DNA from: Taxawa tesnikishii (nom. ined.)
Taxonomy: Eukaryota > Ascomycota > Dothideomycetes > Dothideales
Direction: 5' to 3'
DNA length: 64,000 bases
NCBI GenBank assembly: GCA_030247885.1
Contig: JAPDRO010000005.1
Coordinates: 558,001-622,000, forward strand
Every line of letters starts with the position of its first letter. Position 1 is the first letter of the stretch. Made by a program: the position numbers and the translations under genes. Below the pieces are notes generated by a model, which had not been told where the DNA came from, searched no databases, and saw only the letters and a program-made list of their open reading frames with translations. Below are positions 1-64,000 of the stretch, one piece after another.

Positions 1-2018
1 CGATACCACCGCGTACAACGGTCCTCTTCTGTGATCCTTGCGGTAGGTCTCCGGCATCTTCTGGCTCGGTTAGCTCATCCCGCAGTTGGCCCTCCTCATC
101 ACTATCGATGATGAAATCATCCAACCCCACTGCCTTTTACGCCGCTTCTTCTTGTGCTTCGGATCTGGTTTGTCAGACTTTGAAGGAGCACTTGCGGTTC
201 CCACCGCAACGACTGTGAGTGCTTTCATCCATTCGCGCAAGATAGTCGCCTCTTTGCCCGTCTGAAGAACCTGTGCTGCAGAGGTTGGGGCATACTTTTG
301 CGACCAAGCTCTGGTCTCGCATCTTCCTTCATCAAATGGAGTAAGCGTGCTCGGGATGGCCTCGAACATTGATTTGCAGGCTTGATGCGTAGATTGTGCG
401 CCGGGCTGTAGACTCTCTAAAGCTCTGACCTGGATTGTTGGGCCTGTAATGAGCAGTTTGTTAGGTTTGCGCAAGCAGTCAGGAGGTTCCGGAAAGCCAT
501 CGTCAACAGGTTGCTTCGGTTCGAAGTCTAGAGTACTCCGGAACACATTCAGAATACTTTCTTGGGGATTTAACCGAGTAGATGTGTCTTTCATCTTACG
601 CAAGGGATACCCAGCGTTGATTCTAGTCGAGGGCTCATCGAGCATTTCAACATCGGCAGCTTTGTCAACGTCCATGGATCCATGAACATGCATCGCTTCT
701 CGGTCGGGCCAAGCCGCTTCGCGTAGACCGGGGTGTTTGATCATTTGACGATCTCGAGCCATTCCAAACGACGGTTGCGGAAGACGGTCCTCATTCTCTC
801 GGCCTCTGATATTGCGTGTTTGCATTCTCAGTTTACCAGGTGTAATCGCCGAAGCCTTCCTTGCCGGACTTTGAGCGATATCATGCGCTATGTCTGATGA
901 TGTTGCAACACCTGGGGCATTTTTGGCTTTGCCGAGGAAGAACGGATGTGTAGCCTTTGAAGGCTGGAGCGGCCTAGGAGGGTTGTGAGGCTGTTGCGTA
1001 GGAGTGTGAGCAGGTTGTGCCACGGGGTGTGCCTTTCCTCTCCGGAGAGTATCCGAGAGATCCTCGGCCCTAGACCTTCCATGTGAATTGGGTATCGCAG
1101 AATGACCAGTAGCTGTCCCTGCTTCTTCTTCGGTCTACCTCTCCTGTTCTTGGTCTTGGTCTCCTCCGCAACGTGGTCCGCGTGAGGCTTCGTGACTGGT
1201 GGGAGAAACGTCCCACTTCCGGTAAGCTGAAGCATCTTTTTGGGAGGCACGTTGGATGGAGCGTCGTCATTCGGAAAAGCTTTTGGTGTCGTCTGGTCTC
1301 CAACAGTTTCCGTCCCGACCTGTTTGTCCCCAGTTAGAGGCAACTCCTGCGGCTGAGCCACATTGGGCGTTCGGCGCGGTATCTGCACAGATGGGTAGCT
1401 CTTGGTTTGCCGTTCCGGAGCTTTGGCCTTCGGTGTGGCGGGCGATAGCTGGTGCTCCATGCTAGATGTCGGAAGGGACACTGGACTCGATGTAGGTATT
1501 ATCGCATCCTCCGAACCCTTCAAGGCCGATGCCCCTTCTTCCATACCAACATCTCTTCCTTCGATTTGACTTGTCCTTCGTCTTTTGCGCCGACGAACAT
1601 TTTGGTCGGGTTCCAGCCCTGAGGCAGCCGCAGAGGTGCCCAAGTCGTCGATTTTTGCTGTTTCGCGCCTTTGCCGCCCTTCTTTCGAGGAACTTTCGCA
1701 CTGGCATCATTCCTTCCCTTTATAGCATCCTTTGGGTCTTCTGTATAGCCAGGTAGCCCTTCTCTTATAGTAACGTCATCGTCTCCACTGTTGTGTGGTC
1801 CTTCAGGTGGTGTCGGAACAACTGATTTGGTCGGATGTAGCTCGCCGTTGGTACTGTCGAAATTCGGTTTCGGTTTGACTACGAGGTGGACCATCTAAGT
1901 ATAGGATTGCTATATGGCCAGTCGGCTGGAGAATGTACATACCACTTCCTTTGACGAAGAATGGATGTACGATCTTTTGCCCATCATTCATTGCAACCAC
2001 CACAGCCGCAGCTGCCAT
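1..2018 (-). CDS. ELG1: ELG1/ATAD5 homologue, PCNA-unloading clamp-loader subunit (N-terminal part, cut by left edge)
   Basis: Large subunit of the alternative RFC complex that removes PCNA from chromatin after replication; nuclear. Visible in order: an N-terminal PCNA-binding-like HPFF motif (KIVHPFFVK), a basic stretch RRRKRRRTS, the MLQLTGSGTFLPP and NRRGRPKKK segments, a second HPFFLGKAK motif, the WSQKYAPTSAAQVLQ segment leading into the AAA region, and GLDDFIIDSDEE near the edge. The AAA ATPase core lies beyond base 1. A likely intron is 1895-1942. The reading frame changes near 1652-1656, 1034-1036 and 135-138, each at a T-run on the plus strand (A-run in the gene), and one added A joins the conserved segments each time. 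A further change near 1800-1890 may be a second short intron. The family call rests on the motif order. The exon map is uncertain. Divergent from UTP8. Confidence 0.8.
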
Positions 2019-2348
2019 TCATGCTCTTTGCCAGTGTTAAGAGTCCGCCCAAGCACCTTGCATTTGGGGGCTGTAGAGGACTACGATCGTGATTTCTTTG
2101 GGTGGGTCGTTCGAATAGTGGTGAACAGGAAATGCGAGTTCATCGGAGCAAAGTTCATGACGTGCACGCGACGGAAGTGAAGCACGCGTCGCGAAGGCCT
2201 CTACTTCCCAATAGGCAGTAGCGCGTCTGCAGTGCGGGCCGAACCGAAACGGCTTCACTTTTTCGAAGAAGCTGCGACCGCCGCAAAGCCCGCAGTTGCT
2301 TGAAGAAGGAAGGATTGAGCGCTTTCAACACGCGCCCAAGTCACCACC
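2019..2348. promoter_or_regulatory. Shared divergent promoter, ELG1 / UTP8
   Basis: About 330 bases between the two start codons. It holds one ACGCGT (2184-2189), the core of the MBF/MCB element used by G1/S genes in fungi, which would suit ELG1. The motif also occurs inside several coding regions in this window, so on its own it is weak evidence. Confidence 0.4.
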
Positions 2349-5241
2349 ATGTCAGGAGAGAACGCCATAGAGGCGCCTTATACCATCGCAACCCTGCCAA
2401 AGCCGTTCGATGCTGGCGGAGGAAAGACTTTCGCATCTCCAGTGCATGGCTATCGTGGGCAAAAGAGAAGGAAACGGCCAGAGATTGCTGTAAGCGTGGA
2501 TGGAGAAGGCATAAGTATTTTCCACGTACGTTGTTGCTTGCTTTCTTGCACATCAAACCTGAAGACTCATTCCTTCAAAGGTCCAGAACACGCCCCTCAT
2601 CAGTTCATACGCTCTGCCACCGCAAACCCGCTTTACTTGCCCGCCATGTTCTATCTACCGCAAATTGACCGCCCGGAAATCCACTCAACGGCTCACTTAC
2701 GCTGCTGTGCGCAATGCTACGAGCGCAAAGTCTGAGCTTGTATGCTTCAGCGAAGAGGCGCAAAAGGATCCATCGGCCGCTTTGTCCAGCGACAACCAGA
2801 GCAAGAGCACATATCCACTTGACTACAGCAAGAGCGAGGTGCTGGACATCAGCGTCGTGGTGGTCGACTCTGGTTCCGAAGATATCGGCTCGGCTCTGGA
2901 TGTCTGTTTAGTGTACCGTGACGGCCACGTGGAGTGCATTTCAGGCGACTTGAGCGTTAGGAGATGGCAAGCAGAAAAGGAACTGGTCGTTGGCGCACGA
3001 GACGGCCCATTGTCTGGCCAAGACCACGGAGTCGAATTTGCTGTCATGACGGATTCAGAGGCTGCACGCAAAGGACTGCTGAAGGGCAGAGAGGATGCCC
3101 TTGCCGCACTCGACAACGATAGTCTGTACACCAGCGCGTCCGGTAAGGCTATTTCGCTCCTTGTGCTCGCGACTTCTTCATCGACGAAAAATCACAAAAA
3201 CAGCCGTCGCCTCCATGTGTTTGCGCTGCGGCCTAGGTCAAAGGACTCTATCTCAAGCACTCGACAAGGCCTACAACATATGCTGAGCTACGATCTCCCT
3301 CACATTGTCAACGAAACGAAGCAGACCATTGGAGCCGAGTACTTGCTTCAATCGTCAAATGGAAAGCTACATCAGCGCGTCAATGGTTCGATTGTCACCT
3401 ATGATCTAACAGGTACACTGCCCCGTGTCATGTCCCAACTTGACTCTCGACAGACCGGTTACCTAAGCTTTACTCGTGTGGGGCCCTCATCACTCATGGC
3501 TATAGAAAACGGTTGCTGTGGAATCTATGACATCAAGTACAGCTCCATCCAGGCATTTATACCCCTACCGACTTCGATTGCTTCGATCGGCGAGAAGAGG
3601 AAGCATGACGAGACAGGATCTGACACCTCATCTCTACACTTTGTTTCTTTCTTTTCCGAGATAGGGCTGGCTGTTGCTCTTTCCAGAAATGCTCTGGTGG
3701 GACTTCAGGTCGCTGGAGATGCTTCAACTCGGAAGAAGGCCAGGACGCAAGCCACCCTTCTCGTTAATTCCCTTGGAAAGGGCATCGGCAACAAGGCGCA
3801 ACAAACGAAGGCTTTTACCGAATGGAGAGCAAAGGTCGACGAGCTCGTAGACAACTCAACAGTCAGGGAGTTCGAAGACTTCCTCGCTAAAGAACTTGGC
3901 ATCAAACATGCGCCTAAGCCAGAGAAGGCTTTGACTGATAGTAGCGCAGATGGCGTTAAGGAGGACAAACAAGAAACCGACGCTGAATCATTGCCGGAAT
4001 GGGACTTCTCCAATCTGGATGGGCTTTTGCAAAAGACCGACAGACGCAAAGCGCTATATTGCCTGTCCAAGATTTTCAGTCGGACCACATCCGAAGTCAG
4101 TACCGCCGAGAGCGCTCAATCTACTTGCCCCATCACCATCGCTTATTTTCCACCCAACGTGTTCACATGGCTGGCGGTGACCGGATACGTTTCTGCCTCA
4201 ATGATCCAGCGAGCGTTGCGTGAAAACTCAAACGCGTCGTTATCACTCTTGAACGTAGTACCCGGCGATGTGATGAAAGCCATCAACGAGTTTGACCCGG
4301 AAATGCGCCTCATGAGCGAATTCCTCAACTGGCCCGTCTATATTGAGATTCGAGAGATCGTTGGTGGTCTGAAGTCTCTCATCCAGTCCCTGGACAGTCC
4401 GCCCCCGGCAGCCATTACCAAAGCCATCACCGTAGGCGGCAGTCCTGATGACGCTACTGCACCCGGCGACGACAACGAGATGGCTATCGAGGAAGATTTC
4501 CGCGAAGCTGAAGAAGACCTCGATTACGCCCTGCGTGCTCTCGACTCCGGTCTTGCGGTTCGCAGCTCCGCCCTACGCACTGTCTTTACGCGTCTACACT
4601 CTTTCCCTGCCTCCACCATTGTATCAACTTTGCGATCCACGCTTACCCAGCACGAACTCGTCTTCTTCATCCAGATCCTCCGCATTGAGCTCGCCGACGG
4701 CGGTTGGACGAGCCGCTACGTCGATGCCGAGGTGCAGCGACTTGCAGATGCTGGAACACCTTCCGACCGCTCCATCGCAATCATCAGCAACATGCTGAAC
4801 TGTGCTATTGACGCCATCGGCACGTCCGGATGGTTGGTCGGACTCAGCTCAGACGCCGAGATCGCCGCGGACGAAATGCTGGCCACTCTGCGCGCCGAGA
4901 CAAGCGCTGCGCTCGAGGGGTGTCACGAGGCGGAGTCGCTTGGCACCTTTCTGCGAGATTTCGAACGGTTTTCGAACCTGGTGCGCGTGGCCGAGCGGGA
5001 TGTGCTATGGTTCAAGAAGGGGAAGAAGGCGGGCAAGGTCGATCCCATCCGCCATCCTGGCTTCGAGGTTGTGCCCAAAGCGGAGGACAGTGTGCTGCCG
5101 CTGGGATTGAAGGTGCAGAACAACGTGGAGAAGACGCGGGTGACGAAGGGTGGTGAGGTGAAGGCGAAGAGTAAGAGTGCGATTGGCAAGGAGATCAGTA
5201 TGGGGGTAGGTAAGTATTCACTAGAGAGGATTAGGGTGTAG
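2349..5241 (+). CDS. UTP8: UTP8-like nucleolar protein (small-subunit processome / tRNA export)
   Basis: UTP8 acts in the nucleolus in 18S rRNA maturation and, in yeast, in tRNA export. Two exons, 2349-2525 and 2581-5241, are joined across a 55-nt intron with a GTACGT donor and CAAAG acceptor. They give about 945 residues. The junction recreates the family N-terminus: APYTIATLPKPFD in exon 1, then TPLISSYALPPQTRFTCPP just after the splice. The first half resembles the UTP8 beta-propeller domain. The second half is alpha-helical with acidic stretches (EEDFREAEEDLDYALRAL). The C-terminus, GKYSLERIRV, looks like the natural family end. A GTAAGT overlaps the end, so a final short intron cannot be excluded, but read-through fits better. 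The frame is intact throughout. Confidence 0.85.
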
Positions 5242-14206: not shown

Positions 14207-15750
14207 TCACTCCGCATCCTCCATATTCATCTCGTCAAACTCATCCAACAGCTGTTCCATTGGGATCTTCAAGCGTCCCTCTTCCTCATCCTCAGTATCC
14301 GCCATGCTCATCTCATCCTGCTGTCTCTGAGCCTTGTAGAGCGCCATGCCCTGTCTGAGCTCCTCATCGTCCTCAACATCACGCAAGAACAGCTCAAAGT
14401 CGCGCTCGAGGCGGTCCTGGTCCTGCTTGCGCGGCGCCATCTCGCTCTCCTCCTTGGCCATACGCTTGAGCTTCCAGTTGCGCCTCGAAGCACCACCCGT
14501 CTTCTTGCGTGAGGCGTAGTGCTTCTTCACCAACACCACGTCAGGGATTGTGGACGCGTACTGCTTTGATGCCTCGATGGCTTCCAGGTTCTCGTTGTTG
14601 AACTGCGTGCCGGACAGCAGGTAACCCATGACGCTGTCGCCGACGTTCAAGATTGAGCCGAGGTGTGTTCGCGTGAAATATTCAGTGCTCGATGTGTCGT
14701 TCGCGCGCATGACAGTCGCTTCGGCGAGCACGAAGCGGCCTTTCTGCGGTCCAAGAGGTTCGATGTCCATGACGATGAATTCCACAAGCTCTTGAACGTC
14801 TGCTAGTGGCCCGAATGGAGCGCGCCAGTATACAGGCGTGGACACTTCCGTTGTCTGGAGGGTGTTTGGGTCGAGCAGGTTTACGGAAGTTCCAACCCGA
14901 TAGCAGAGCGTTAGGGGAGAGATGTTGCCGACTTGCTTGGCGAGTTTGATAGGTAACGCGACCAGGTCATCCTTGCAAATCGGTACAAGCTCGCACGAAA
15001 ACGTGAATTTGAAGGTCTTCTCGGATGTATGTATGTTCATGGAAATCAGCTCTTGCGACTTCTTCGTCCGTACCGGCGTGACCGAAGTCAAGAAGTCCAC
15101 AAATTTCTCCGCATGGTTCCGTTGTGAGTAAAAGAAGTCGATGCCGTCGTGGACTTCCTTGATATTGATAGTGTCCTTGTGTGCGCCGTGCTTCAGAATG
15201 AGTTGCTCCAGGTACAGGAACGTCCGCTTGTGAGGGACCTTTTGCCGGACCTGCACCACCGCTCGCCACGTGTTGTGTGTGAAGGATTTGGCGCAGTCCG
15301 GGCATTGTTGGTTGGCCTGGACGAACTCAACAGGGAATTTTGTTGCAGGATTGTCCCTTCAAACTCTTGCTGCACCGTAATTTGTAGCCTTATCCTGCGC
15401 GAGTGTGGTTCGGTCCAGATAAAGGAAGCATCGATGATTCTGACTTTGTTCAATCCTCTTAGCTTCTTCAGACAGAGGGCGAGGAGTTCTCGTGATTCGA
15501 GTGGAGCAATGACCCAGGAGTTTGGTGGCATAAGCCATCTGTCGCAGTCTCTGCATTGGTGAAGTGTACCCTCTCGCTGGATACCGGAGGTAGCGTCGAC
15601 AGTGAGCTTAACGCAGTCGTAGCAGAGAGCACCGGCGGATTGTGTGCCATCTATGGCAGCACCGCAGTTGTAGCAGAGGATGGTTGCGCCAGTCTGAGGG
15701 CGCGCTTGTGGCGCAAGAGGCACGGAGCCGCCGTCGATGTCCATGGACAT
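14207..15750 (-). CDS. NMD3: NMD3, nuclear export adaptor for the 60S ribosomal subunit
   Basis: NMD3 binds the pre-60S particle and links it to the exportin CRM1. The start MSMDIDGG at 15750 is followed by paired zinc-binding cysteines (ILCYNCG, ALCYDC, HQCRDCDRW, later QQCPDCAKSF). Next come the highly conserved VRQKVPHKRTFLYLEQLIL, the VGNISPLTLCYRVG stretch, and an acidic C-terminal tail (DTEDEEEGRL and DEFDEMNMEDAE) matching the export-signal region. The frame changes at the T-run 15338-15341 (AAAA in the gene), between TILQQ and VEFVQANQQCPDC. One added A restores an uninterrupted 514-residue protein of the usual family length. As NMD3 is essential in yeast, a sequence error is the likely cause. 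Divergent from the MAPEG gene. Confidence 0.93.
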
Positions 15751-16974: not shown

Positions 16975-18353
16975 TTAGACCATGACTCTCCTCAACCCTC
17001 CAGTGCCGCCCAGCAACCTCCGTCCCGTGACCGCACACCGCCCCTTTCCACTCTCCCATCTGCCCTCCCTGCTTCCACCATCCTCTTCGACCCAGCCCTC
17101 GGCCTCTCCGCCTCCGCCCTCCATGAACGCTTCCTGTCGTGGATGCTCGCCGTCCACCCAACGGAAGATACACGTGTAACAAAACACAAATCCTGTCTGC
17201 GCTGCCGTTGGTGTCTGAACTGGATTTCGACAGATGGGGCAGAGGTCCGAGGTCTCTGGGGATGGTGGGGGCACCGTCAAGATCGGCAAGGACGTCAGGC
17301 TTGAGATTGGAGGTTTGCGTGCTAAGGCGGGTTTTTCCTCTTTGCTCTCTTGTTTCCCCGCGGTTTCCTTCGGAGAACCCTTTCAGAGGGTTTCTCGGCG
17401 GGTGCCGGAAGCCCGGAAACGGTTGGTGGTGGCAGCTCGAGTCCCTCTGCTGCTTTGCGCGACAGCTGCCGCGCAAAGTCGGATGCGTGCCACCATTCCA
17501 GGAACTTGAGCGCGAAGATGGAGGTCGGTAGCAGAATGCGCAGACTACTCAGCACCCGTGGGTAAACGGTGTGCGTAAAAGTCCTGGGGCTGAAGATCGA
17601 GTTCGTCTGGCCCGGTCGTGCTCCTCTGCTCGGTTTGGTTTGTGCTGCCGCAGCAATGGCTCTGTGATCTGCCTCGTTGAGTCGTCGCATCCGTGTGCCA
17701 ATGAGCCAGAGGAATGGTGAATGGTATTTCGATCCGTCAAACAGATATGCCAGGTTGAATGCCAATAGCGCGAAATAGTACGCCGCGTTCACGCTGGGAT
17801 AGACTTTCCTGAGGAACCACTTGTAGTACCACAGTAACCTCTGTTTGATTCCCGCGTCCCGCGGCAGTTGATCTCTGTCCGCATACGCTGGGCCAAGTAG
17901 GTTGCTCCCCGCCGCGTGTACGTCGTATCCCTCGTCCAATTTCCTCTTAACGTACGGCAGCGCCACCATGACCGCCAGGTTCTTCCACACATCGCTGGTT
18001 CGCAGCTTCAGTGTCTCGCGCACTTGCTCAGGAGCCCCGAGAGCCGCACGCGGGATCTCTCCATTCTTAGTCCGCAGCACGCGCTCGCGTTTCAGTCCGT
18101 AGAAGTTCTCGGTAAAGCCGCCGGAGTAGGTGACGAGGTAGTGGCGCTCTACGAGGAGGGATAACAGCGCATATAACTCATCAAAGGAATTCAGTACTCG
18201 CAGGAGGTAGCGAGGTTGTCGATGTGTTGCGAGCGCGAGAAGGTAGCGGAGGGAAGGTGGGATAAGCGATGCGAGCTGAGACTCCGAAAGGAGCTCGAAG
18301 AGGGAGGGCTTTTGCTCATCATGCCCGGATTGGAGGGAGGTCATGAACTCCAT
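16975..18353 (-). CDS. PEX12: PEX12, peroxisomal RING-finger peroxin
   Basis: PEX12 is one of the three RING peroxins (PEX2/10/12) that ubiquitinate the import receptor PEX5 at the peroxisomal membrane. N-terminal family segments are visible: [37 protein letters not shown] and [16 protein letters not shown]. They are followed by [19 protein letters not shown] and a membrane-spanning region. The C-terminus carries the degenerate RING ([20 protein letters not shown], then [16 protein letters not shown]) and a [14 protein letters not shown] tail. The frame changes at the T-run 17332-17336 (AAAAA in the gene), between RAKRK and the linker before the RING. One added A gives about 459 continuous residues. 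Read as is, the protein would lose the RING. I treat the break as a sequence error, as in the neighbouring genes. Confidence 0.92.
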
Positions 18354-22325: not shown

Positions 22326-22765
22326 TCAACCTCTGCCACCCATATAATCCGCTCCACCCGCCCTCCGTAACCTCTTAACAATGTCCCCCTCATCGAAATC
22401 CGACTTATCCCTCGCATCGACCTGGACACTGTGGTGCGCGAGCACGCGCTTAACGTTCCCGCTCTCGATGCTGACACGGGCCTTGCGCATGACCTTTGTG
22501 TTCTCGCCGATCCAGACGACGAGCACGAACTTGACCCGCGTGCTCTCGACGTCGTTGGCGTACTCGACCCGCACGTATGCGTATTGTGCCTGGCTGTCGT
22601 CGACCGCGGATGCCAGTTCGCTGAGCCCCCGCTGCCCGTCGCCGTCAGCGTCAGCTTGTCGCCTACGGCCGACGCGTACGAGATCAAGAGCCAGTTTGTG
22701 TCGTCTTTGTCGGAGCGTACGGCGTCGTAGGCCGCGAGGATTTCGGGCGCGTCGGCTCCGGACAT
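22326..22765 (-). CDS. Coactosin-like actin-binding protein (ADF/cofilin fold)
   Basis: Small cytoplasmic F-actin-binding protein. The N-terminal part, MSGADAPEILAAYDAVRSD then DTNWLLISY and KLTLTATGSGG, matches coactosin. The rest, LSELASAVDDSQAQYAYVRV, FVLVVWIGENTKVMRKARV and DIVKRLRRAGGADY, follows in the next frame. The change is at the C-run 22626-22630 (GGGGG in the gene). One added G gives the standard TGSGGLSELA junction and 146 residues, the normal family length. No intron is apparent. The start at 22765 is the family start; an upstream in-frame codon adds residues without homology. The C-terminal GGADY and lack of extra domains separate it from twinfilin or drebrin-like proteins. 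Confidence 0.88.
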
Positions 22766-23207: not shown

Positions 23208-25442
23208 CTACGCCAGCTTCTCCAACAAGATCTTCGCGCCCGCATTTCCCCTTGATGTCTCAACCTTCCTCTTCTTGTTCTTCTTCTCCCCATCCTCGTC
23301 CACCTCTTTCCTGGCCGCTGCACCTCGCCCTTCGCCGCCTTCTCAAGCTCCTTCTTACCCTTCTTCAACAGCTTCTCCATCTCCTTCCTCTTCCCAGCGT
23401 CCAGGTCTTCGCTCTCCAGCATCGCAACGGGCACGAAGCTCGACGGCCCGCAGGCCCAGCTCACCAAGTGATCTTTAATGACATCGTACAGGGCATCACC
23501 AACCTTGAGCGCGGGCTCTACGCGCACAAGTTTCTTAGATGCGAAATCAAACTTGCCGCCGCTTGCCAGGGTCTTGAACATCTTGCCCGCAGCAGTGCTG
23601 TGGACAAGGTGATCGGAAGAGGTAGGATCGCCGCCTGCGGTTTCCGCGACGGCAGAGATGGCGGCGGATTTGTCGCCGACGCATTCGAGGAGGACTTCGG
23701 AGACGACTTGGCAGCCGAAGCTGGAGGCCACCAGGTCAGCGGCACGATTGGCGACAAACGAAAGTAACGATGGGGAGAGCGCTTGCACAAGCTCCATGCG
23801 GCGTGTCTCGGCATTCTTCTTCGATGTCGTCTCACGGATTGCGTGGATCTCGACCAGACTCGCTTTCTGCGCGTCCGTGAGGAGCCACTTTGCCTGACCT
23901 GCCAGCGGGTACAATAGCGGGATGCGCGCTGTGGCGTGCGTAGAAATGCCCAAGAGACGATCTTCACGCTCGGTGGTGTCGGAGATGGACTCGCCCAGTA
24001 ATTCAGGGAAGATCGCTTTTGCACTCATTTTCGTGTCATCGGTCACGTCCATGGCGGCGAGGAGCACCATGTAGGCGTGCGCATCGAAGGCCATCATCTC
24101 AACAGTGTCTTTGTAGACCTTCAGGATCACCTTGCGGTCCTTGGCACCACCGTAGGCGAGTGCGAGACACACAACGCGGCTGCCGCTCTTGGTGAATGCA
24201 AGGTTCTTGAGGAGGTCTCCACCTTGGTTTTCATCGAGATCAGACTTGAGCAGTTCAAGGAATTCGGTCGCCTCTGGTGTGCCAGGTTCAGTGTTCAGGA
24301 AGTATTGCAGCATAGCGTCGTGCAGCATCGTAAAACCCGTCATTTTCTTCTGGATCAGCTGGTTGATCATCTGGTGCAGGTACTGCATGATGGGTTTCTT
24401 CTTCTCCGGGCTCTTTTCCAATATCTGCTTCAGGTCTGCCGTAGCCTCAGTGTCGGACGCTGCAGCTCCTTTGGTCTTGCCGAAGACGGCGAACTCAGCT
24501 CCGTACCATTCGCGCAGCATGAGGGCTTTCTGAGTCGGAGTCGCAACCTGGCGGTAGATGTCGTCCATAATCCACGAGGCTTCCGGTTGGTTGATCAAAC
24601 GGCGGACATGGCCGTAGAACTCGGGGACAACCATGTCGCGGACAGACTCATCACTGTATAGCTAGTCAGTCTTGACCGTCTGTAGGAGAAATTGTTCACA
24701 GAATTGACGCACCCTTCAACGATCATCTTGCCCACCAAGAACTTTCCGTACTTGCTCTCCGACAGCGACCGAATATCCGCCTGCAACTCGCGCGCAATGC
24801 TCCGCCTCTGTTCCTTGTTCGCATACTTCAGCGCGCATTGAATCACCCGTACACTGTCGTGCTTGAAGACGAAGTCGCGAACTCTGCCCGTGATAATCTC
24901 AAACAACTCTGCGACAAGGGCCTTGCGCTCCTCGAGCGGGACGTGTGATTTCCTTCGTAGTCTCTCCCAAATCTTCTTCGACCGCGCAATCGAGTCGGCG
25001 TTGGGTTTGGCAGCTTTGCGTTCCTTTGCGAGACGACGCTGTTCTGCGTGAGCTTCGGCAGATGTTGTTTGAACTGCAATACTTGTAAGCCTCCGCATGT
25101 CTACGTGATCATGAGCTGTGGCGTATAAGTACCCTTGAACTTCTTGTCGCCAGCATCTCTGTTCGCGTTCGCCGCGCTCTTCTTAGGCTTCTGGTCCTCG
25201 ACTTCGTCCTCAACGTCAGATGTGTTGCCCTCGCTCTCAATCTTCACGCCATCTGGTATGTCGTCCATCTCATTGTCATCTTCTGTGGTGTCCGACTCTG
25301 GCAAGTCGGCCGCGACTGGAGGCGGGCGCTTCTGCTTGGTCGACTTTTCGTGCTTTGCGGATCCGGTCCTCTGCTTCTTGCTGGGCAGCGCTGCAGGAAT
25401 GGCGGCAGCCTTCGGACCTTCCTTGCGCTTTATTCCAGCCAT
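23208..25442 (-). CDS. PUF6: PUF6, Pumilio/CPL-domain ribosome biogenesis factor
   Basis: Nucleolar RNA-binding protein of the PUM3/PUF6 group, needed for 60S assembly (in yeast also ASH1 mRNA repression). Exons are 25133-25442, 24713-25073 and 23208-24653, with 59-nt introns. The start MAGIKRKEGPK is followed by an acidic, low-complexity region. Then come SIARSKKIWERLRRKSHVP, the repeat-type helices VFKHDSVRVIQCALKYANKEQR and ESKYGKFLVGKMIVEG, and the CPL region with FTKSGSRVVCLALAYGGAKDRK and SFGCQVVSEVLLECVGD. The frame changes near the C-run 23338-23340 (GGG in the gene). One added G continues into RKEVDEDGEKKNKRKVE and ends AKILLEKLA at 23208, about 705 residues. The alternative tail in the uncorrected frame is arginine-rich with no family match. 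Confidence 0.92.
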
Positions 25443-31503: not shown

Positions 31504-33012
<1,509 letters not shown>

Positions 33013-33492: not shown

Positions 33493-36400
33493 TCAAAAGC
33501 CTTGCGTTCTCCTCCTCTTTTTCGCAGGCGCTCTCCCTCCAAATCGCCCTGGCTCGACCTGACTCGCAGGGAACTCAAATCCCTGGCTTTGCGTGACCTG
33601 CGAGCGCGCAAATCCCAGAGGTTGACTTACACCGATGGGTACAACTTGACTAGAACTGACAAGGCCAGGAGCTTGACTCGACAACAAGCCTTGCGATTGC
33701 GCCAATGCCGTCTCGCGACGCTGTCTGCGCAGGTGTTTCTCAGCCCGTCGTTTGAGACGCGCACGTTCTTCTGGGGTAAGATCTTCGTCCTCGAATTCGG
33801 CTTCCTTATCCAGCTGTCGCTGTGCTGCCAGCCAATCGTACTGATCGGGATCGCCACCTGGTTTCCAGTGGGCAAGCATGTTCGAAAGGGACTTGAGTAG
33901 AGGTGCAGGAGCAACCTTGTCAGAGGAGAATGTAGTAAGGCGCTGTAGATGAGCATACTCTGATGCCACCAGCGTCGAGGGGTGGCTTGATAACGAGTTC
34001 GAAGCCAGTGACGGAGTTGCGCTAGGTGAAGGAGTTGGCAATGCCTGTGAGGACATGCCCAGATCTTGCGAGGAACCCGTCATTCCGGGCCCTAATGCGT
34101 CAGTGCGGAAGGGAATGGGAATGTTGCCCGACTGCGAACCTGCCGATCCTCGCGTCGCTCCTTGCAACTGGTCTGCTGGCGATGGGCCAATGCTATGGCT
34201 CGCGAGGCAGACATCTGCGGTCAAGCGACGTGCTGCCTGCTCCTTGGCAAGCCTTACTCTTCCGGCCACACGCTGAGACAATGGTCCAAGAAAAGAGCCA
34301 ACAATATCATCATACACAACCGTCACCTCCGTTCGCTGGTTCTCCATTCTTGGAAGGCTAGGCAGATTCGTATCAGTTAAATCTGAAACAACAACTTGCG
34401 GCTGAGTTTCTTGACTGTGCAGATCCCACATTTGTCTGGAAGTGACGTCCAGAAGGCTTTGAAAATCGGCAGATGCTTGATCGAGGTCGGAGATTGTAAG
34501 CTGCTGCTTGTCGAAATCTGACCTATTGAAGGATGAGCATGCTCGTTCAAGATTGTGTAGAGTCACATTACCCACAGTAGACGCGTCTGCGTAATCTCCA
34601 ATTCATCCGCTTCGAGACGGACACGCATGTCGTCAAGCGCTGTTGAGAAGTCTTGGCTAGAAGGGAGTGCGGACTCCGCAACCTTGGTGTACACGCACTC
34701 ATAGTTCATCGACCAGATGCTTTTTGCTGTCGAAACAGCTGTAATGCGTATGCGTTGTCGGCGGGCTGAGAGACCACCTGACGAGTCTTTCTCAAACCTG
34801 CCACCATCCTCGTTCTCTGATAGATCGTCACCGACTATGAACGAGCTGTGGCCCAGCCTGGAAGCGCTCAGTTTCGACGCCATCTGTGCGACTTTGGTCC
34901 TCCACTGTGGCGGGAGAACAGCGTGCGTATAGAAAGCGGTGCTATGTTCTTCGGGCCCGCCAAAGTATAGCTGCTGGTAAACACGCATATCCGGCAGAAT
35001 GATGGTCATGTTGTAGAAGCGAAACTGGTTTTCCCGATAGAATTGTCCCAAACCAGATGGAGACCCATGGTGCATGCTGTCCGTGTACTCCACAGGTTGC
35101 ATGTGCACACTCAATTCATTGGCTGAAGCTTGACTGCTTGTCGGCAGCTCCGGTAGGTCCACGCTTGCTGCATCGGAGATAGACGTAAAAGCAGGCGAAC
35201 GCTGCTGATCCGCAGACAAACGATAGGTTGTCGTCGTTCTACCAAGGGACGACTTCACAAACACTACAACGTCTGGGGCAGAGTATAAGCATCAGATATT
35301 GACCAGACCGAAACAATCATAATTTACCTTCTTTGTCTACATAGCATGACAAACGCAAGCTGACATCCTCGGGATCCAGGAAATGTGTACAGCGTAGCAC
35401 GACGACTGCACCAGCTGTTCTCCAGCTTTCGTCATCTGATCGGTCTAGACATCTGGCCCGCATGAGAAGGAGGTGCGTCGAGGTCAGTACAAGGAATTGC
35501 CCACGGTCAACAGGGTGGCTCTGCAGACCAAGAATCCAATGTGGGGTGCCTGTCAAGCCAAGATCAGGATCCAGAAGCCTAACAGGATTGGATTTGAAGT
35601 CGAACAAAGCAAGCGATCGTCTGCTGCAGACAACGATGGTAGACAAATCGCCCGCCCATACAATTCTTGCCCAACCATCATCCGGGATCGGGCTGAGGAG
35701 CTTGGTGCGCGTATCACCATCTACTTCTCGGAGACTCGACCTGGCCACATTGCGTGGCAGGTGCTTCCTTCCCTCACGCTTTTGTGTGAGCTCCCAAACA
35801 GTCCATGTCCCGGTCTGATCAACGATTGCGAATTGCTGCTGGTACCAAGGGTTAAAAGAAACATCAGCATGCGAAAATCCTCCAGTAGAACGACCCGATA
35901 TCGTACAACTGGGGTTGGGATTCAATACTGCAGTTCTGGGTTCTCCAGCAGGGCCGCGCCGGATATGGGGCTGGAGAATGGATGTCGCCTTCAGTGTTCT
36001 GACCGCAAGCGGTGCGCTTCTCCCTTCAGGCAACTCAGCGAAGCGTATCTGCTGGATAGGACCACCAGGGTTCCAAAAGCCGGTTCTCCAGAGATCTGGG
36101 GGACCTCAATCCAGACAGATTTGTTCTTTTCCCAGCCTTGCCTTTGCGGTTGTATCTGAGCCAAACGTAACCTCATTCTCGATCCATCGCCTGGAAACGC
36201 ACAGATAGACGCAGTTCTCCGGTAATCCAAATCTCGCACTCTTCCAAATGCCAACAGATCTCCTACAGCGGGATCGTAGCGGGTAGACTCTTCTATTACC
36301 TGCCCCGAGATGTTTGCAAGAGAGTGTAGCAGGTCACCACTGGTAGTCAAGCTAATTGGTACATGCTTCGATCCGAGAGCTCGTTGACCTTTGGGAAGAC

Positions 36401-36972: not shown

Positions 36973-37826
36973 ATGGCTACTATCGCATCCACACCAAGCC
37001 ATGCACGCTTCGGCAGCTCGCTTTCTGGAAGCACCATGGCACCACCATTTTATACTGCAGACGCACCTTCCATGGCAGATTCACTACCTAGCATCAACTT
37101 TGGATTCGAAGACCTTCGCGAGCGCATGGCGCGCTTCACTGCGCGCTTCGACGATTTCATCGAGAAGGGCCGCAAACGCGTGCTAGAGGAGCGCAACCAG
37201 TTCAGACTCAGTGTCGCGGAGATTCAAGGTGGGACATAGATATAGCCAATTCGTTGCGATCTACTGACAGTATCATAGAGCAACAGCGCACCCGAAAGTG
37301 CGAAATCGAAGATGTCGCCAACAAGTCCATCGTGCATCAGAACACCCTGACCAAGGAGCAACAGGAGTTGGAGGAGATGGAGGAAGCCATCGCGGAGCTG
37401 AAAGCACAGCGCCAGGAGAACGAAGCACGCCGGGACGACCTAAGAGCGCAAATCTCCGAAGTTCAGAAAGCTATCCACGTCCGCCGTCAAGCACAGCAGC
37501 AGCACCAGCGTCAACTGGACGACCAAGCCAGACACAACGGACCTGAGTTAAGCTTCTGGGAGTCGAACTTGTGCATGCGCATAGACAAAGGAGGAAGGGA
37601 CGACACGCTGAAGTTCGTCTTTACTCATATCGACGAGCGGAAGTGGGAGAGGGAATGCTGGTTCGAGCTGAGTATGGGCCGGCGGGACTATTCTGTCAAC
37701 GAGACGGAGCCGCAACTGGAAAGGGAGGCTGTCGACGAGATTTTGGCTCGGTTGAATGAAACAAGGGAAATGGCTGGGTTCTTGAAGGCTATGAGAAGTC
37801 TCTTCTCGGATGCCCTCAAGCACTGA
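36973..37826 (+). CDS. SPC25: SPC25, Ndc80-complex kinetochore subunit
   Basis: Outer kinetochore protein that, with Spc24, anchors the Ndc80 complex to the inner kinetochore. Exons 36973-37228 and 37279-37826, split by a 50-nt intron, give 267 residues. An N-terminal region with INFGFEDLRERMARFTARFDDFI is followed by a long coiled coil through about residue 160 (VHQNTLTKEQQELEEMEEAIAELKAQ and similar heptads). The C-terminal globular RWD-like domain follows (ELSFWESNLCMRIDKG, DDTLKFVFTHIDERKWERECWFEL, FLKAMRSLFSDALKH). The splice joins SVAEIQ to EQQRTRKCEIED in phase. Length and order agree with fungal Spc25. The frame is intact. Confidence 0.93.
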
Positions 37827-38286: not shown

Positions 38287-38358
38287 GGCCGCGTGGCCCA
38301 ATGGTAAGGCGCTTGACTACGGATCAAGAGATTGCAGGTTCGATCCCTGCCGCGGTCA
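38287..38358 (+). tRNA. tRNA-Arg(ACG)
   Basis: Full cloverleaf of 72 nt without intron. Acceptor stem GGCCGCG pairs with CGCGGTC (one G-U). The anticodon stem CTTGA/TCAAG closes the loop CTACGGA with anticodon ACG (read as ICG). The T arm is GCAGG-TTCGATC-CCTGC. The internal B box GGTTCGATCC is intact, and an A-box-like TGGCCCAATGG is present. The wobble A would be edited to inosine. A T-rich tract follows within 10 bases (CATTTTG), as for Pol III termination. Confidence 0.97.
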
Positions 38359-44575: not shown

Positions 44576-45977
44576 TCACCGCAGCTTCCAGTCCTTGTAA
44601 GTCCATTTCTCTGTAACCTCCCTCCTTGGTTTCCTGTGCTGGGTTGTGCGTCTCGCCTCGATCTTGCCGTTAAGCAGCATGTTGCGATACCTGTCCTTCA
44701 GCAAGTTTCCTTCCGGCTTGAGAGCACGCAAAGAGTCCTGAAGCTCGTCCGCAAGCACGACCTCTAGCGGCGCTTCAGGAACGCTAGAACAAGTCAGCAC
44801 GGAGGATCAGGCTCAAGATGTAAGGCTTGGACATACCGTTGCTTCCCTCCAAGTGGTCTTCTCCTTAGTACTTCCTCGTCGTCCGAGGCTTCGCTCTCGT
44901 CGACAACAGCGGTGAGCTGCTGGCGCTCTTTTCTTTTAGCTCGACCTGCTTTGCGAGCTCCAGTACCCGCCTCTGCTGCTCCTCCCGCTTCTTCATCTGC
45001 TGTTCCCACTTGGCCTGTCTCTCTGCCTCCTTTCTTCTCTTGATCTTGTTCCTCTCCGCTTGGGTTTTTCGCTCCGGCCGCTTCTTGTTCAGGTGTGACT
45101 CTTCTGACTCGCTTTGTATGCCTTCCCACTCACTCTCCCAAGCGCTCTCGTATTCCTCATCGGACACAGGATCTGGCTTAGCTGCCTCAGCGAGCGCCTT
45201 CTCCAGACGTTCAGCCTCCTCCTGCGCCTCCTTCAATCGCTTCCTCTCCGCCTCAACCTCCTTCTCGCCCTCACGCTGGATGAGTGCTTCCCAAGCTTCG
45301 AAGTCAGGGTTGTAACTGCGACCATCCTCTGGCTTCTTCACCGCGGGGAAGGGCTTCCCGTTCGCGGCAAGCGATATGGAAGCCTGCTTCAACGTCTTGG
45401 GTTCCTTGATCGGCTTGGCCTCTTCCAAAAACGAGAATCTAGGGTCTGCGGGAGCTGACTCGGCTGCCCATGGATCATGGTCCACAGATTCCACCACTAC
45501 GCTCTTTTGCATGTTTGGTCCAGCATATGCGATGTTCTTGAGATGCTGCAGCTCCCTGTGCGGGACGTATGTACCGTTCTTGTTGCGCTTGCTGCTGGGT
45601 TCGACAACGCCATCTGTACTTTTGCGCTTGCGAGTGTCGACAGCAGGGACGGCGGAGCGTGCGCCAAGGATCTCATCGGCCTTGAGCGGCTTGTGCTTCT
45701 TTACATAGTCTTGCTTGATCGCTTGCGAGCCGGTGGTATCGAGAGTAAAGAGTTCTCCGGCGGGACGTTCTGCAAGAACACCACTGTGACAACGTCAGCC
45801 TCTTCTCTCTCCGAGCGGTTCCCTGACAGAGCAGAGCTTACCCGATCTGTATAATCTCATCGCGAACATCTTCTAGGCCCGTCTGAACTTGGGTAATATC
45901 GACATTTTTGCGCCAAGCCTTTTTCCCTTCCGGGAGGGCTGCTTGTATTGCTGAGGAGCTCGTTGCACGTCGGTCAT
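44576..45977 (-). CDS. NOP53: NOP53 / GLTSCR2-like ribosome biogenesis protein
   Basis: Nucleolar 60S assembly factor; in yeast it recruits the exosome helicase Mtr4 to process 7S pre-rRNA. Exons are 45842-45977, 44837-45783 and 44576-44783, with introns of 58 and 53 nt. Visible: N-terminal QPSRKGK and the AWRKNVDI segment, the linker DEILGARSAVPAVDTRKRK, a long charged coiled-coil region (EKEVEAERKRLKEAQEEAERL), DEEVLRRRP, and the C-terminal APLEVVLADELQDSLRALKPE through EKWTYKDWKL. Two frame changes occur, at T-runs 45920-45924 and 44934-44937 (A-runs in the gene). One added A in each restores KKAWRKNVDI and ELKRKERQQLTAVV. The corrected length is about 430 residues. Both breaks look like sequence errors. 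Confidence 0.9.
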
Positions 45978-46349: not shown

Positions 46350-47313
<964 letters not shown>

Positions 47314-48783: not shown

Positions 48784-48819
<36 letters not shown>

Positions 48820-49520: not shown

Positions 49521-50629
49521 ATGGCTCTTACCCCAAGATTGAGAGTTCGTGAGCAAGATCTCAAAGACAAAGTAGCGGTGGTAACGTATGTTCTCAGTCA
49601 CGGTGCCAAAAGCGTTTGGCATATGCACAATCGAAGGTGGCGAGCGAGGTCCTGCAGCTTCATCCAATCGAGTCATGAAAACACCGACGGTCACAGGCTG
49701 ATCTCGAGGTAGCGGAGCTAGCAAGGGTATCGGACGGGCCATTGCTATACACCTTGCAAGCAGAGGCTGTTCAGTTCTCGGTACTTGTTCGAGCAAGGAA
49801 ACGCTTCACCTGATCGACTCTTTGGCGCATACGGTATCAGACCTCTACAAAGGCCTTCAGAAGTACTCCAACGGCCAGGCACCAAAGATCGTTGGCGTTG
49901 CCGCCAATCTGTTGTCCGCCGACTGCGCCGACACCATCACAAAAGCGCTCGAAATCCATTTCGAGGGTCATTCAGTAGGTGTCGCGTTCACGTGCGCCTA
50001 GTGTTGACCAGTGTTTACTGACGGTGGGTAGGACATCGTAGTGTTCAATGCTGCGGTTGTCCTACTTGCCGCACCGGGCGAAGCAGACATCGCGACAGTC
50101 CAAGACATGCTCCTTGCCAACGTGCAAACCCCGTACCTAGTTGTTGATCAGCTTGTCAAAAGAAAATGTTCCGCCAAAATTCTAGGATTGTCAGCATCTC
50201 CTCTGACGTGGCGCGCACCACGATCCCCGGGTTTCATGCAGTGTAAGACCCTTACATCTCAAAGTCAGTAGGATCACGTTTGTTAACAGTGTGGAAAGCT
50301 CCCTATATTCCGCCGTCAAGGCTGCGTTGGAAAGCTTCACGCGTACGTGGGCGGAGGAGTTTGGAGCTAACCCGCAGTTGGAGTTTATGAAAGGGACGAC
50401 GGTCAACGCTGTTTCGGCCGGACTGATAGACAGCGATCTTATAAGCAGCTATGGCCCGGAAATGCGACAGTCTTTGGAGACGAAAATTCTTCCGAAACAG
50501 AGTCTGGGAGCGACGATCGGCAAATGCGAAAACGTGGCGGACATCGTGGGATTTCTCTGCAGCCACGATGCGAGATGGATGACTGGGAGTGTCGTCGCTG
50601 CCAATGGAGGATCCCGTAAGGTTGGATGA
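49521..50629 (+). CDS. Short-chain dehydrogenase/reductase (classical SDR)
   Basis: NAD(P)-dependent oxidoreductase of unknown substrate. Exons 49521-49585, 49713-49974, 50032-50242 and 50290-50629 give about 292 residues. The Rossmann cofactor motif TGASKGIGRAIA is rebuilt exactly over the first splice. Then come the NAG-like FNAAV, the catalytic serine region RIVSISSDVA and the YSAVK motif (catalytic Tyr and Lys), followed by the family end DIVGFLCSHDARWMTGSVVAANGG. The frame changes at the A-run 50163-50166: one added A turns the open frame into KMFRQNSRIVSISSD, and the exon phases then agree. NAG is replaced by NAA, seen in some SDRs. Position beside KEI1 gives no hint of pathway. Confidence 0.85.
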
Positions 50630-55786: not shown

Positions 55787-57719
55787 ATGGGTGGCGGCGG
55801 TGGAAAACCATTGAACATCTTCACGATGAAAAGGGGCGACGAGCCCAAGGAGGTGTTCAATTGGCGACTGTGGTTCGCCGTCTTCTCCTTCGGTATCATG
55901 GGTGCTGCCCGCGGTATCGATGAAGGTCTCATCTCCGGAACTTTCAACACCAAGAACTTCCAGAAGGCGTTGCATTTCGACGAACTCGACGAGGTCGCTC
56001 TAGCCAACGTCAAGGGCAACGTTTCAGCTATGGTCCAGATTGGTAGTGTCGCAGGTGCAGGGCTGTGAGTTTTGTCCTCGTATCTGTACAGAAGACCGTC
56101 TAATGCTTTGTTCAGGGCTTTCCTGCTTGCTGATCGCATCGGCCGTCTATGGGCCACTAGGCAGCTTTGCTTGATGTGGATCCTCGGCATTGTCATCTTC
56201 CTTACTAACGGTGGCCGTCTTGGACAGGTCTACGCTGGTCGCTTCATTGCCGGCCTAGGAATTGGTCAGACGACCGGTACGTTCCTAAATTCATCGCAAC
56301 TGCTTCAACCACCTCAACAAAGCTGACAACGCCCAAGTGATTGCCCCCGTCTACATCTCCGAGATTGCGCCCAAGTCGGTTCGTGGTCTCTGCACTTGTG
56401 TCTTCGCCGGCTCTGGTAAGCCTCCGGACCAGTCAGCAGAGCTTGCTTTGGGAACTAACCTCCTCAGTCTATATCGGTATCATGCTTGCGTACTTCGCCT
56501 CTTGGGGAAGCTCGCTTCACATCGACAAGAGCTCGATTCAGTCCTGGGTAGTTCCTACCACTATCCACATCATGTTCGCTGGCATCATCTTCATTCTTTC
56601 GTTCTTCAACTATGAATCCCCTCGTTTCCTGATCAAAAGGGCGACCCGGAGCACGCTTATGAGAACTTAGCGCGCGTTCGAGGTCTGCCTAGAGATCACT
56701 ACTATGTCACCGATGAGATCAACGAGATCCAACATCAGCTGCACGAAGAGCAAGAGGCCACCCTGGGCCAGGGTTTCTTCGGATACCTCAAGGAAATGTT
56801 CCTCATGCCCAACAACTTTTACCGCATCTACCTGGGTCTTGGCTCTCAATTGCTTTCTCAGTGGTCTGGCGCCCAGTCTATCACCATCTACGCCCCAGAC
56901 TTCTTCGCTCTCCTTGGTACCAAGGGTCAGAATGAGAAACTGTTCGCTACGGCCATCTTCGGTGTTGTCAAGTTTGTTGCCGCAATTGCTTGCGCACTGT
57001 TCCTGGTCGACTACATCGGCCGCAAGCGTTCCCTGAGCATTGGCATTGGGCTCCAAGCAATCAGTATGGCATACATCGCTGCTTTCCTTACTGCTGTACC
57101 AACGCTTGGTGAGGGCGAGGAGTTCACCACGGCCCAAAAGCATGCAAGCACCGGCGCTATCGTCATGATTTACCTGTCCGGTACGTATCCCTTCCCATCA
57201 GTACGAACGATGCTAACAACTTGTCAGGTTTTGGATGGGCAATGGGATGGAACTCAATCCAGTACCTTCTGAACGCCGAAATCTACCCTCTTCGAATCCG
57301 TGCCATGTCCAGTTCGCTCGTCATGTGCTTCCACTTCGGTATGCTTCCCCTTCCCAACTGTCCCACCATGTTCCCTATCCGAGAACTAACAGGATATCAC
57401 AGTCAACCAATACGGCAACTCCCGCGCCGTGCCCTCCATGCTCCTCGATGTCTCCGATGGCGGCCTGAGCCCCAAAGGAACCTTTTGGCTCTTCACAGCC
57501 ATTACCATAATCGGTGGCGTCTGGGCCTGGTTCTTCATTCCCGAAACCGCGGGACGCAGCCTCGAGGGCATGGACGAGCTGTTCAAACTGCCATGGTACC
57601 GCATCGGAAGGTACGGTCAACGCGAGGCCGAGATCAGCGATCAGTTTGCGGCTGAGCGGCATCTCGAGGAGAAGCAGGCAGCGGGCGTTGAGAGGGTCGA
57701 GGTCGCTACAAAGGTCTAG
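55787..57719 (+). CDS. MFS sugar transporter (hexose/quinate-permease type)
   Basis: Twelve-helix proton-coupled sugar porter of the plasma membrane. Exons: 55787-56064, 56116-56276, 56338-56415, 56468-57180, 57228-57338, 57403-57719. About 552 residues. Family motifs: FGIMGAARGIDEGLISG (helix 1), the DRIGRLWATR loop between helices 2 and 3, GQVYAGRFIAGLGIG, VYISEIAPKSVRG, FNYESPRFL, WSGAQSITIYAPDFF, VDYIGRKRSL, NAEIYPLRIRA and PETAGRSLEGMDELF. The frame changes at the A-run 56635-56638. One added A gives RFLIKKGDPEHAYENLARVRG, and the following exon phases then agree. The substrate is not readable. The DEG in helix 1 and the central-loop length fit fungal hexose or quinate-type porters. Isolated from obvious catabolic partners. 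Confidence 0.92.
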
Positions 57720-60528: not shown

Positions 60529-60538
60529 TGTTCAAGCA

Positions 60539-60937
60539 CTGTGAGGGTTGTGTATTAGAAGAGGAATAGGCAGGAATGTGAGTAATGGGTATCAGAAACA
60601 GAAGGGAAGCAACGTGTGCAGAGCAGGATGTCAAGAGAGAAGGAATCGAGCGTGCTGGCGCGAGAGATGAATTCAAGACGCGGACAGGCAACGAGGGACC
60701 GGTTGTGAGCTCCCTGAAGTTTCGGATACGACAAGTGTTCGGGCAGCGGCTCAACAGTTGAGAGGACAGTGCTGAGCGATACACGGATATTGATTGAGTC
60801 GTGGGCTTGGGGTGGGCTTTTCCTTCGATCAAAAGTCCGAAGCGGCGAGCTCGGATGTGCTTTGGCTTGACCGGCGTTGATGGGATGGTGCGGTTTATGG
60901 GATGATCCAAAATTGGCAGGTCAGAGACCGGGCTTAC
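60539..60937 (-). other. Probable 5' leader intron of ACL2 (399 nt)
   Basis: A strong donor, GCCGCAG followed by GTAAGC (60937 downward), pairs with acceptor CCCTCACAG ending 10 bases before the ACL2 start. A branch-like TCTAATAC lies about 20 bases before the acceptor. No experimental support. Judged from splice signals alone. Confidence 0.45.
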
Positions 60938-61302
60938 CTGCGGCTGAGCTAGCGGTATACCGACCGAGCAGTTCGGAGGATTTGACGGCTGAGGAAGCGG
61001 AAGGACGGGGAGGATGGGGAGGCTGATGGATGGATTTGCGAGTGCGAGTGCGAGAAAGAGCGAGAAAGAGCGAGGACACGAACAAGTGAAGTCGAGAAGA
61101 GGTGATTGATGAAGCAAGAGATGTCGGCGTATGCTGCTGGGATGCGTCGTTCGGGGAAACAATTTTGGTTGATGGCCATGTTGGCCCTGCGCCAAGGGGC
61201 AGCTCTGCAGGCTTGCTCGCTAGTGCGGGCGGACATCCGAGCGGAGACTGGTGAGTGTTGCCGTTGAGTGGGGAATTGGTGCGTCGATCCACGCCCAGCA
61301 TC

Positions 61303-61329
61303 GCCAGCAACGCCAGCAACGCCAGCAAC
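61303..61329. repeat. 9-bp tandem repeat GCCAGCAAC
   Basis: Three perfect copies of GCCAGCAAC, with a degenerate copy just before them, inside the ACL2/ACL1 intergenic region. Confidence 0.85.
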
Positions 61330-62076
61330 GCCCCGGCAGGCTAGGGGCACGCCAGCCGACCACGTAAAAATAAACCACCTCGGAGGATTAAGGACGCCTG
61401 ACACACGCTACCTCCAGGAATTACGCCCAAGTGCAGAGGACACTTGTCGACACAGATTGTTTATTGCCCGCCCGTAGAGACGAACAAGGAGAAGGAATGC
61501 ACTTGCGCCACTGGACCCTTGTACATTACAGGATTGCGTACTGATCACGCATTGCATTTCGCTGACCTGCCCGTAGCGACGGCGCAGGAGCCTCAGCGCG
61601 CATTGCCTGCAACACTTGCAACATTGCATCGACTAAACATAATGTCCCGATCATTGACGCGATAGATTCGATAGGACAGGATTGGTGGTTTCCGGAAACG
61701 GGCACTGAGCGGCACGAACACACTACCATCACGACTGTGGCTACCCCGTCGGATTCTGCGGTGAGGAGAGCCGTGCGCGGAATGGTACGATGGCTCAGGT
61801 ACCGGCGAGCAAAAGTCGGGGTTGCGCCCGGTTGAATTTAGCGCTGCCGAGCATCCCTGCAACGCCGAGCTGCAGTTGAAGCGTCAACATATGTCACGGA
61901 GGTCCAGCTAAACCGCATCGTGCGCCAAAGACACTCAATTGACCTGACCGTACTGCATTCCTCTCTTCTTCTCTCTCTCCATCATCTTCTCTATACCCAC
62001 ACTTCTCTTCTCGTCTCCTCGTGTCTCTTCTTTCACGTACCCTCGCCCTTCTTTCCTAGAGATACCCCGCTGCAGC

Positions 62077-62164
62077 GTAAGTAAGCCGTCCCCTCGGACA
62101 GCTCAGTCCCAGGCCCCCAAACTTTTTGCGCTGTAAGCTTGCAGCTACGTACTGCTAAACTTAG
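62077..62164 (+). other. Probable 5' leader intron of ACL1 (88 nt)
   Basis: Donor GTAAGTAAG, branch-like TGCTAAAC and acceptor CTTAG occur in the right order and spacing, 120 bases before the ACL1 start codon. Based on splice signals alone. Confidence 0.5.
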
Positions 62165-62284
62165 TTCAACACCACATCCCACCGCCTCTCAGACATTACA
62201 ACTGCGACTTCTGCACATACTGACATCTCTCAGACATTGTAGCAATCCTCTAATCACCCTCCGCCCTCGACTTGCACATTCACA

Positions 62285-64000
62285 ATGCCCATGGCGGTCC
62301 CAGCAGTGGGAGGCACCCCTTCTCAGGCCTCTACCTCCACTCCTCAGACCAACGGCCACACCAACGGAGCCAATGGCCAGCTCGACGCCAACGACAACAT
62401 CAAGCGCTTCACTGCTCCAAGCAGGTCGCTGAGCCCACACCCTGACTACGCCCTCTTCCACCCAAAGACAAGATGTTTCGTCTAGTAAGTATACCCTTCT
62501 ACGCGAAACACAGAGCCTGGAGGAGACCTGGCTAACCGCGTCTTCCCTTGACAGCGGCCTCCAGCCCAAGGCGGTGCAGGGTATGCTCGACTTCGACTTC
62601 ATTTGCAAGCGTAGCACTCCTTCGGTTGCTGGTATCATCTACACTTTTGGTGGCCAGTTCGTTAGCAAGATGTGCGTACACCCCCGTGAGATAGTCTTGT
62701 GACAGTGTTCTGATCTCCATGCAGGTACTGGGGTACTAGCGAGACTCTCCTTCCTGTCTACCAGGATGTGGCCAAGGCCATGGCCAAGCACCCTGACGTT
62801 GACACCGTTGTGAACTTCGCCTCCTCCCGTTCCGTCTACAGCTCCACCATGGAGTTGATGAACTACCCCCAAATCAAGTCCATCGCCATCATCGCTGAGG
62901 GTGTGCCGGAGAGGCGTGCTCGTGAGATCCTCCACGTCGCCAAGGAGAAGGGTATCACCATTATTGGTCCTGCTACCGTTGGTGGTATTAAGCCTGGTGC
63001 TTTCAAGATTGGTAACACCGGTGGTATGATGGACAACATTGTTGCCTCCAAGCTCTACCGCAAGGGTTCCGTCGGCTATGTTTCTAAGTCCGGTGGTATG
63101 TCCAACGAACTGAACAACATCATCTCTCAAACTACAGATGGTGTCCACGAGGGTATCGCCATTGGTGGTGACCGCTACCCCGGTACCACTTTCATCGACC
63201 ACCTCCTGCGTTATCAGGCCGATCCTGATTGCAAGATCCTCCTCTTGCTCGGTGAGGTTGGTGGTGTCGAGGAGTACCGTGTCATTGAAGCTGTGAAGAA
63301 CGGCACCATTACTAAGCCTCTCGTCGCCTGGGCCATCGGTACCTGCGCCAGCATGTTCAAGACTGAGGTACAGTTCGGTCACGCTGGTGCATCGGCCAAC
63401 TCTCAGCTTGAGACCGCTGCTAAGAAGAACGAGAGCATGAAGGCTGCCGGCATCTACGTTCCAGACACCTTCGAGGACCTCCCATCTGTCCTCAACCAGG
63501 TCTACCACAAGCTCGTCAAGGAGGGCACCATCAAGCCTCAGCCAGAGCCGGCTGTACCCAAGATCCCCATCGACTACTCCTGGGCCCAGGAGTTGGGTCT
63601 TATCCGTAAGCCCGCTGCCTTCATTTCCACTATCACCGACGACCGTGGCCAGGAGCTCCTGTACGCCGGAATGCCCATCTCCGACGTTTTCAAGGAGGAC
63701 ATTGGCATTGGTGGTGTCATGTCCCTTCTATGGTTCCGTCGCCGTTTGCCTCGCTATGCTAGCAAGTTCTTGGAGATGGTTCTCATGCTCACTGCTGACC
63801 ACGGTCCGGCCGTGTCTGGTGCCATGAACACCATTATCACTACGCGTGCCGGCAAGGATCTGATCAGCGCCCTGGTCTCTGGTCTCCTGACCATCGGATC
63901 TCGCTTTGGTGGTGCTCTTGACGGTGCTGCTGAGGAGTTTACCAAGGCCTTCGACAAGGGCATGAGCCCCCGTGACTTTGTTGACACTATGAGAAAGGAG
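62285..64000 (+). CDS. ACL1: ATP-citrate lyase, large (succinyl-CoA ligase/citrate synthase-like) subunit, cut by right edge
   Basis: Partner of ACL2; cytosolic. Exons 62285-62484, 62555-62671 and 62725 onward, running past 64000. About 531 residues are visible. A variable Thr/Asn/Gly-rich N-terminus (about 40 residues) precedes the conserved [21 protein letters not shown]. The CoA-ligase part shows [21 protein letters not shown], the loop [17 protein letters not shown], the [19 protein letters not shown] stretch and [16 protein letters not shown]. The phosphohistidine region contains [19 protein letters not shown]. The citrate-synthase-like C-terminal part begins [19 protein letters not shown] and is incomplete here. 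Both splices rebuild conserved sequence (FVYGLQPKAV, SKMYWGTSE). Strong codon bias toward C-ending and GGT codons. The frame is intact. Confidence 0.97.

Follow-up and report, generated by a model that had tools for sequence, protein, structure and literature searches.

Nanopore-only assemblies of the fungus Drechmeria coniospora carry the same defect that is described below, where it was cured by short-read polishing; in those assemblies, over-long homopolymer runs are the more frequent error (PMC7500977). Among long-read-only bacterial assemblies, homopolymer-length errors are named as the commonest residual errors (PMC8812927). The window analyzed here is a stretch of 64,000 bases (bases 558001-622000 of contig 30) from a genome of 29.37 Mb in 34 contigs; judging by gene content and the short introns, the genes belong to a filamentous ascomycete. 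The assembly resembles both of those cases in being highly contiguous and yet having conserved genes whose frames are shifted throughout by single-base indels, mostly in homopolymers. Unlike in the Drechmeria coniospora assemblies, the breaks measured here are short, and because the length bias runs opposite, the exact process differs.

Ciliates such as Euplotes use programmed frameshifting widely. The window shares with Euplotes-type frameshifting that many genes are read in two frames, a likeness taken up below together with the differences. We conclude, at a probability of about 96%, that the assembly dropped single bases, mostly in short homopolymers, at the stage between reads and consensus, and that the genes of the organism are intact. 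Below, this reading is weighed against programmed frameshifting, missed introns and real gene loss.

Frame breaks in the window

All three reading frames were displayed around the 12 strong sites named by the first-pass annotation (Table 1), which had described genes broken by a homopolymer one base too short. At 12/12 sites, the frame in which the protein continues downstream is the upstream frame minus one base (sign test on direction, 0.0005, on sites chosen by that annotation). The claim that every case is a contraction and never an expansion held at these 12 sites. The homopolymers fared less evenly. A run of at least four identical bases lies within 6 bases of 10/12 sites, in keeping with under-called homopolymers, and the association is not universal: the run at ELG1 1034-1036 is shorter than four, and at the PUF6 site the bases at 23338-23340 read CCT, with no run of at least three within 6 bases. 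The two cases offered as weaker, at 20916 and 29911, are unsupported, there being no run at either coordinate and, by eye, no clear frame restart.

SAHH, ACL1, ACL2, KEI1, SPC25 and YPT6 had been described as intact genes without runs at risk. Their hand-set stretches (5,970 bases) carry 27 runs of at least four bases (4.5 per kb), five of them of at least five, compared with 92 runs of at least four (7.0 per kb), 18 of at least five, in 13,196 bases of broken genes. The intact genes are poorer in runs than the broken ones, yet not run-free. ACL2 and ACL1, which encode the parts of ATP-citrate lyase, are divergent neighbors at 58858-64000 of the window, with no break in the parts examined.

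Table 1. Frame breaks at the strong sites, in window coordinates, with the nearby run and the evidence at each.
Break	Interval	First-pass position	Strand	Run and evidence
ELG1 break a	90..180	135-138	-	run of 4; frame falls back one base
ELG1 break b	1034..1083	1034-1036	-	run of 3; frame display; model calls one base short
ELG1 break c	1620..1700	1652-1656	-	run of 5; frame falls back one base
NMD3 break	15326..15358		-	run of 4; PDB and Pfam matches consecutive; junction -1; model call
PEX12 break	17290..17380		-	run of 5; membrane region on one side, RING on the other; frame display
Coactosin break	22606..22700		-	run of 5; Cofilin_ADF on both sides; junction -7; model call
PUF6 break near C-terminus	23303..23342		-	no run of at least 4; chain in two frames; junction -7
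RRN6 break	36040..36130		-	run of 4; beta-propeller on both sides; junction -4
NOP53 break b	44890..44980		-	two runs of 4; frame display; profile on both sides, apparent intron
NOP53 break a	45880..45970		-	run of 5; frame display; profile just after break
SDR break	50120..50210		+	two runs of 4; frame display
MFS sugar transporter break	56616..56659		+	run of 4; Sugar_tr on both sides; junction -1; model call

If genes were genuinely one base short genome-wide and their proteins were restored at short runs, by slippage of the transcript or by programmed -1 frameshifting, every break would likewise be one base short. An in-frame X XXY YYZ heptamer is present at 2/12 sites, against about 2% of random window places, but the other 10/12 sites have no such heptamer, and the sites have no common slippery motif, a difference from Euplotes-type frameshifting. 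The affected places, in read direction, are A, T and G runs plus one run-free place, and the mechanism would need to operate in many unrelated essential genes. Unlike in Euplotes-type frameshifting, moreover, NMD3, PEX12 and PUF6 here match solved single chains. We regard restoration by frameshifting or slippage as very improbable.

The run-length spectrum is not decisive. Runs of at least six bases number only 48 in 264 kb, and in the sampled contigs G/C runs extend from four to five bases less often. As proof of error the spectrum was dropped because a 50-kb stretch of finished E. coli K-12, a bacterial comparator, shows the same fall at the 4-to-5 step (17/167).

Homology across the window breaks

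For adjacent matches to one family, a junction value was obtained by subtracting three times the profile gap from the DNA gap. On this measure an intron is expected to give approximately its own length, and a lost base to give -1, plus or minus multiples of three from ragged ends. The NMD3 chain in PDB is matched at 11-136 in one frame and at 137-514 in the next, with the Pfam profile running 1-122 and then 121-243. Pfam matches are similarly consecutive for the Rrn6 beta-propeller (1-66, then 70-331), Cofilin_ADF in coactosin (2-38, then 34-124) and Sugar_tr in the MFS transporter (145-203, then 200-358). The PUF6 chain is matched at 519-655 and then at 663-695 in two frames, the second stretch being weak (3.4 bits). 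Because the junctions of NMD3, RRN6, coactosin, the MFS transporter and PUF6 lie between -1 and -7 (Table 1), there is no room for an intron at any of them, and missed introns are refuted for these five.

Evidence at the remaining sites is of other kinds. Both pieces of PEX12 fit one peroxin-12 chain in order, with Pfam domains on either side of the break and a loose, poorly conserved join; the chains matching peroxin-12 and PUF6 are presumably from fungal sources. At NOP53 45920, the Nop53 profile is matched on one side, starting just after the break (4-31). At NOP53 44934, it is matched at 30-337 before and 363-391 after, and since an intron seems to lie inside that gap, the two-sided match is no proof of a break. 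Searches with the four ELG1 pieces around its three break sites returned no Pfam matches, and ELG1 returned none in PDB. In the SDR, the outer pieces have Pfam matches and the middle piece has none. The ELG1, SDR and NOP53 breaks rest on frame continuity, with the frame model in addition for ELG1 1034.

A separate observation concerns RRN6. Two long frames of this gene overlap at window 34563-34602 (-). The downstream frame matches the helical-bundle family only from position 94 onward and the upstream frame has no match to it, so another break, or else an intron, may be close to this overlap.

Conserved families across the genome

Genome-wide searches covered four families whose selection did not depend on a known break: TCP1/Cpn60, HSP70, tRNA synthetase class I and MCM. 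They yielded 25 junctions, of which 21 are intron-sized (49 to 410 bases), three are exactly -1 and one is 38. This hand count leaves out three pairs: one of HSP70 matches that overlap on C23, and two of tRNA-synthetase matches, distant on C12 and nested on C1. Of the three -1 junctions, C1 holds one, in a TCP1-family gene, and C3 holds two, in an HSP70-family gene and in one of the six MCM genes. Three breaks in 34.2 kb of matched coding DNA correspond to one per 11.4 kb (95% interval 3.9-55.3 kb). The 38-base junction, in HSP70 at C1:1374174-1374249, is ambiguous, neither intron-sized nor -1, and perhaps reflects an insertion in a family member that has diverged.

Of the three genes in the Rpb2 family, one is split, its junction being -1; the family was searched after the frame model and Pfam had shown one member to be broken, and a rate including it (4 in 37.6 kb) was set aside because this family was not blind. 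A search for sugar transporters gave 9 scored matches among 323 candidates, one per place, and no junction was obtained from it. Taken over all distinct measured breaks, 13/13 junctions are -1 or congruent to -1; five of these breaks came from the first-pass annotation, five were picked by the model as short and three came from the blind family searches.

Real pseudogenes, that is, genes which the strain has lost through single-base deletions, would also appear as frames broken as written in the assembly. However, the NMD3 family has a single gene in this genome and that gene is broken, and breaks also occur in members of the Rpb2, MCM and TCP1 sets. Yeast needs NMD3 and the Rpb2, MCM and TCP1 sets to live. 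The affected genes do not form a dispensable or redundant class; they include the sole NMD3 and single members of the Rpb2-type and MCM sets, which number three and six genes. Furthermore, family matches remain good on both sides of the breaks, and the direction is one-sided. Because the sole NMD3 copy and members of other essential sets share one one-sided, single-base class of break on several contigs, this does not look like gene loss, for which the chance is minute. The first-pass annotation had likewise favored an error in reads or consensus over gene loss, and the families not picked for breaks bear it out.

Frame-and-intron model

A frame model with added intron states was trained on the window and 200 kb from 20 other contigs (264 kb, 21 contigs in all). 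At the strictest setting (-12) it called ten places as one base short and none as long in 264 kb, and 9/10 lie outside the window. At this setting no call was made in 543 kb of simulated null, a comparison which favors the model because the null was built from the model's own statistics. With 13/48 simulated losses recovered at this setting, the model suggests that a base is lost roughly every 3.3 kb of coding DNA. At -10 there were 22 short and 2 long calls, against 4 and 5, respectively, in 543 kb of null; at -8 the null calls in 273 kb were 11 short and 6 long. Other intron costs also returned mostly short calls: 27 short and 5 long, 35 and 9, and 22 and 2 with dearer introns at three settings, and 10 and 0 with cheap introns, none of the latter inside the window. 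Without intron states there were 35 short and 7 long calls at -9 and 14 short and 1 long at -12.

The model recovered 4 of the 12 strong sites at -8, 3 at -10 and 1 at -12. The NMD3 break was called in the intron-free and dearer-intron runs and missed in the cheap-intron run. ELG1 1034 and coactosin were called without intron states and with dearer introns, including at -10, and the MFS transporter break was called at -8 only. Runs of at least four bases occur in 7/10 call intervals at the strictest setting (2.55 expected) and in 12/22 at -10 (6.53 expected), leaving 10/22 intervals at -10 without a run of four.

Outside the window, 15 of the 18 short calls at -10 were compared with Pfam (those at L006 2000, L009 1591 and L014 8746 were left out). 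Five are flanked by matches to one family that follow in order across the call, three are matched on one side and seven have no match. The two-sided families are Rpb2, two short-chain dehydrogenases, CorA and a HAD hydrolase; the direction of these five junctions is not independent evidence, as the model had already called them short. Among the strictest calls outside the window, 4/9 have a family in order on both sides.

Several calls were rejected. The calls at 37232 (SPC25), 24658 and 25102 (PUF6), 7755 (in a PAP2 gene) and 29574 read by eye as introns, and 7755 is one of the four short calls in the window at -10. Both long calls at -10 are in the window: 11002 reads as an intron and 62469 is a false call beside one. 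With dearer introns, long calls also include 56305 and 56471 in the MFS gene, plus five outside the window. With several calls in the window reading as introns, the tallies at looser settings include false ones. The intron in SPC25 has approximate limits of 37229-37271 (+), about 43 bases, and looks like a frame break to a simple model; the gene had been described as intact, and this reading of the call there agrees.

Missed short introns could, by the same token, be behind the frame changes generally. The calls at 7755, 24658, 25102, 29574, 37232 and 11002 all look like short GT-AG introns, 62469 adjoins one, and the gap at NOP53 44934 seems to hold another. Against this, all homology-measured breaks have junctions of -7 to +14 bases, while intron-sized junctions are of 49 bases or more. 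We consider it extremely unlikely that missed introns account for the breaks.

By the model null, the junction arithmetic and the family searches, one-base-short breaks exceed chance expectation. The defect is not special to the window, and other contigs are likewise affected.

RNA genes

A lone 5S rRNA gene was detected at window 5504-5623 (-) (Rfam RF00001, 70.3 bits); dispersed 5S genes are usual in filamentous ascomycetes. A tRNA gene is present at window 38287-38358 (+) (Rfam RF00005, 64.6 bits). The 5.8S rRNA gave no match at E 0.001 across the whole assembly, and the rDNA array may be absent or withheld from it.

Origin of the breaks and consequences

The window breaks are present in the deposited sequence and are almost certainly artifacts rather than biology. 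The 20 other contigs sampled span 0.51-2.83 Mb each, which suggests a long-read assembly, probably one made without accurate short-read correction. Under the reading that single bases were dropped between reads and consensus, they would have been lost in sequencing or in consensus building, and the deposited sequence would then shift the frames of intact genes.

Gene-loss claims, gene counts and predicted proteins taken from this assembly are unreliable. Roughly extrapolated to 29.4 Mb, the two rates correspond to approximately 1,200 to 4,100 broken reading frames. When applied to conserved families, junction arithmetic provides a read-free test able to flag such assemblies.
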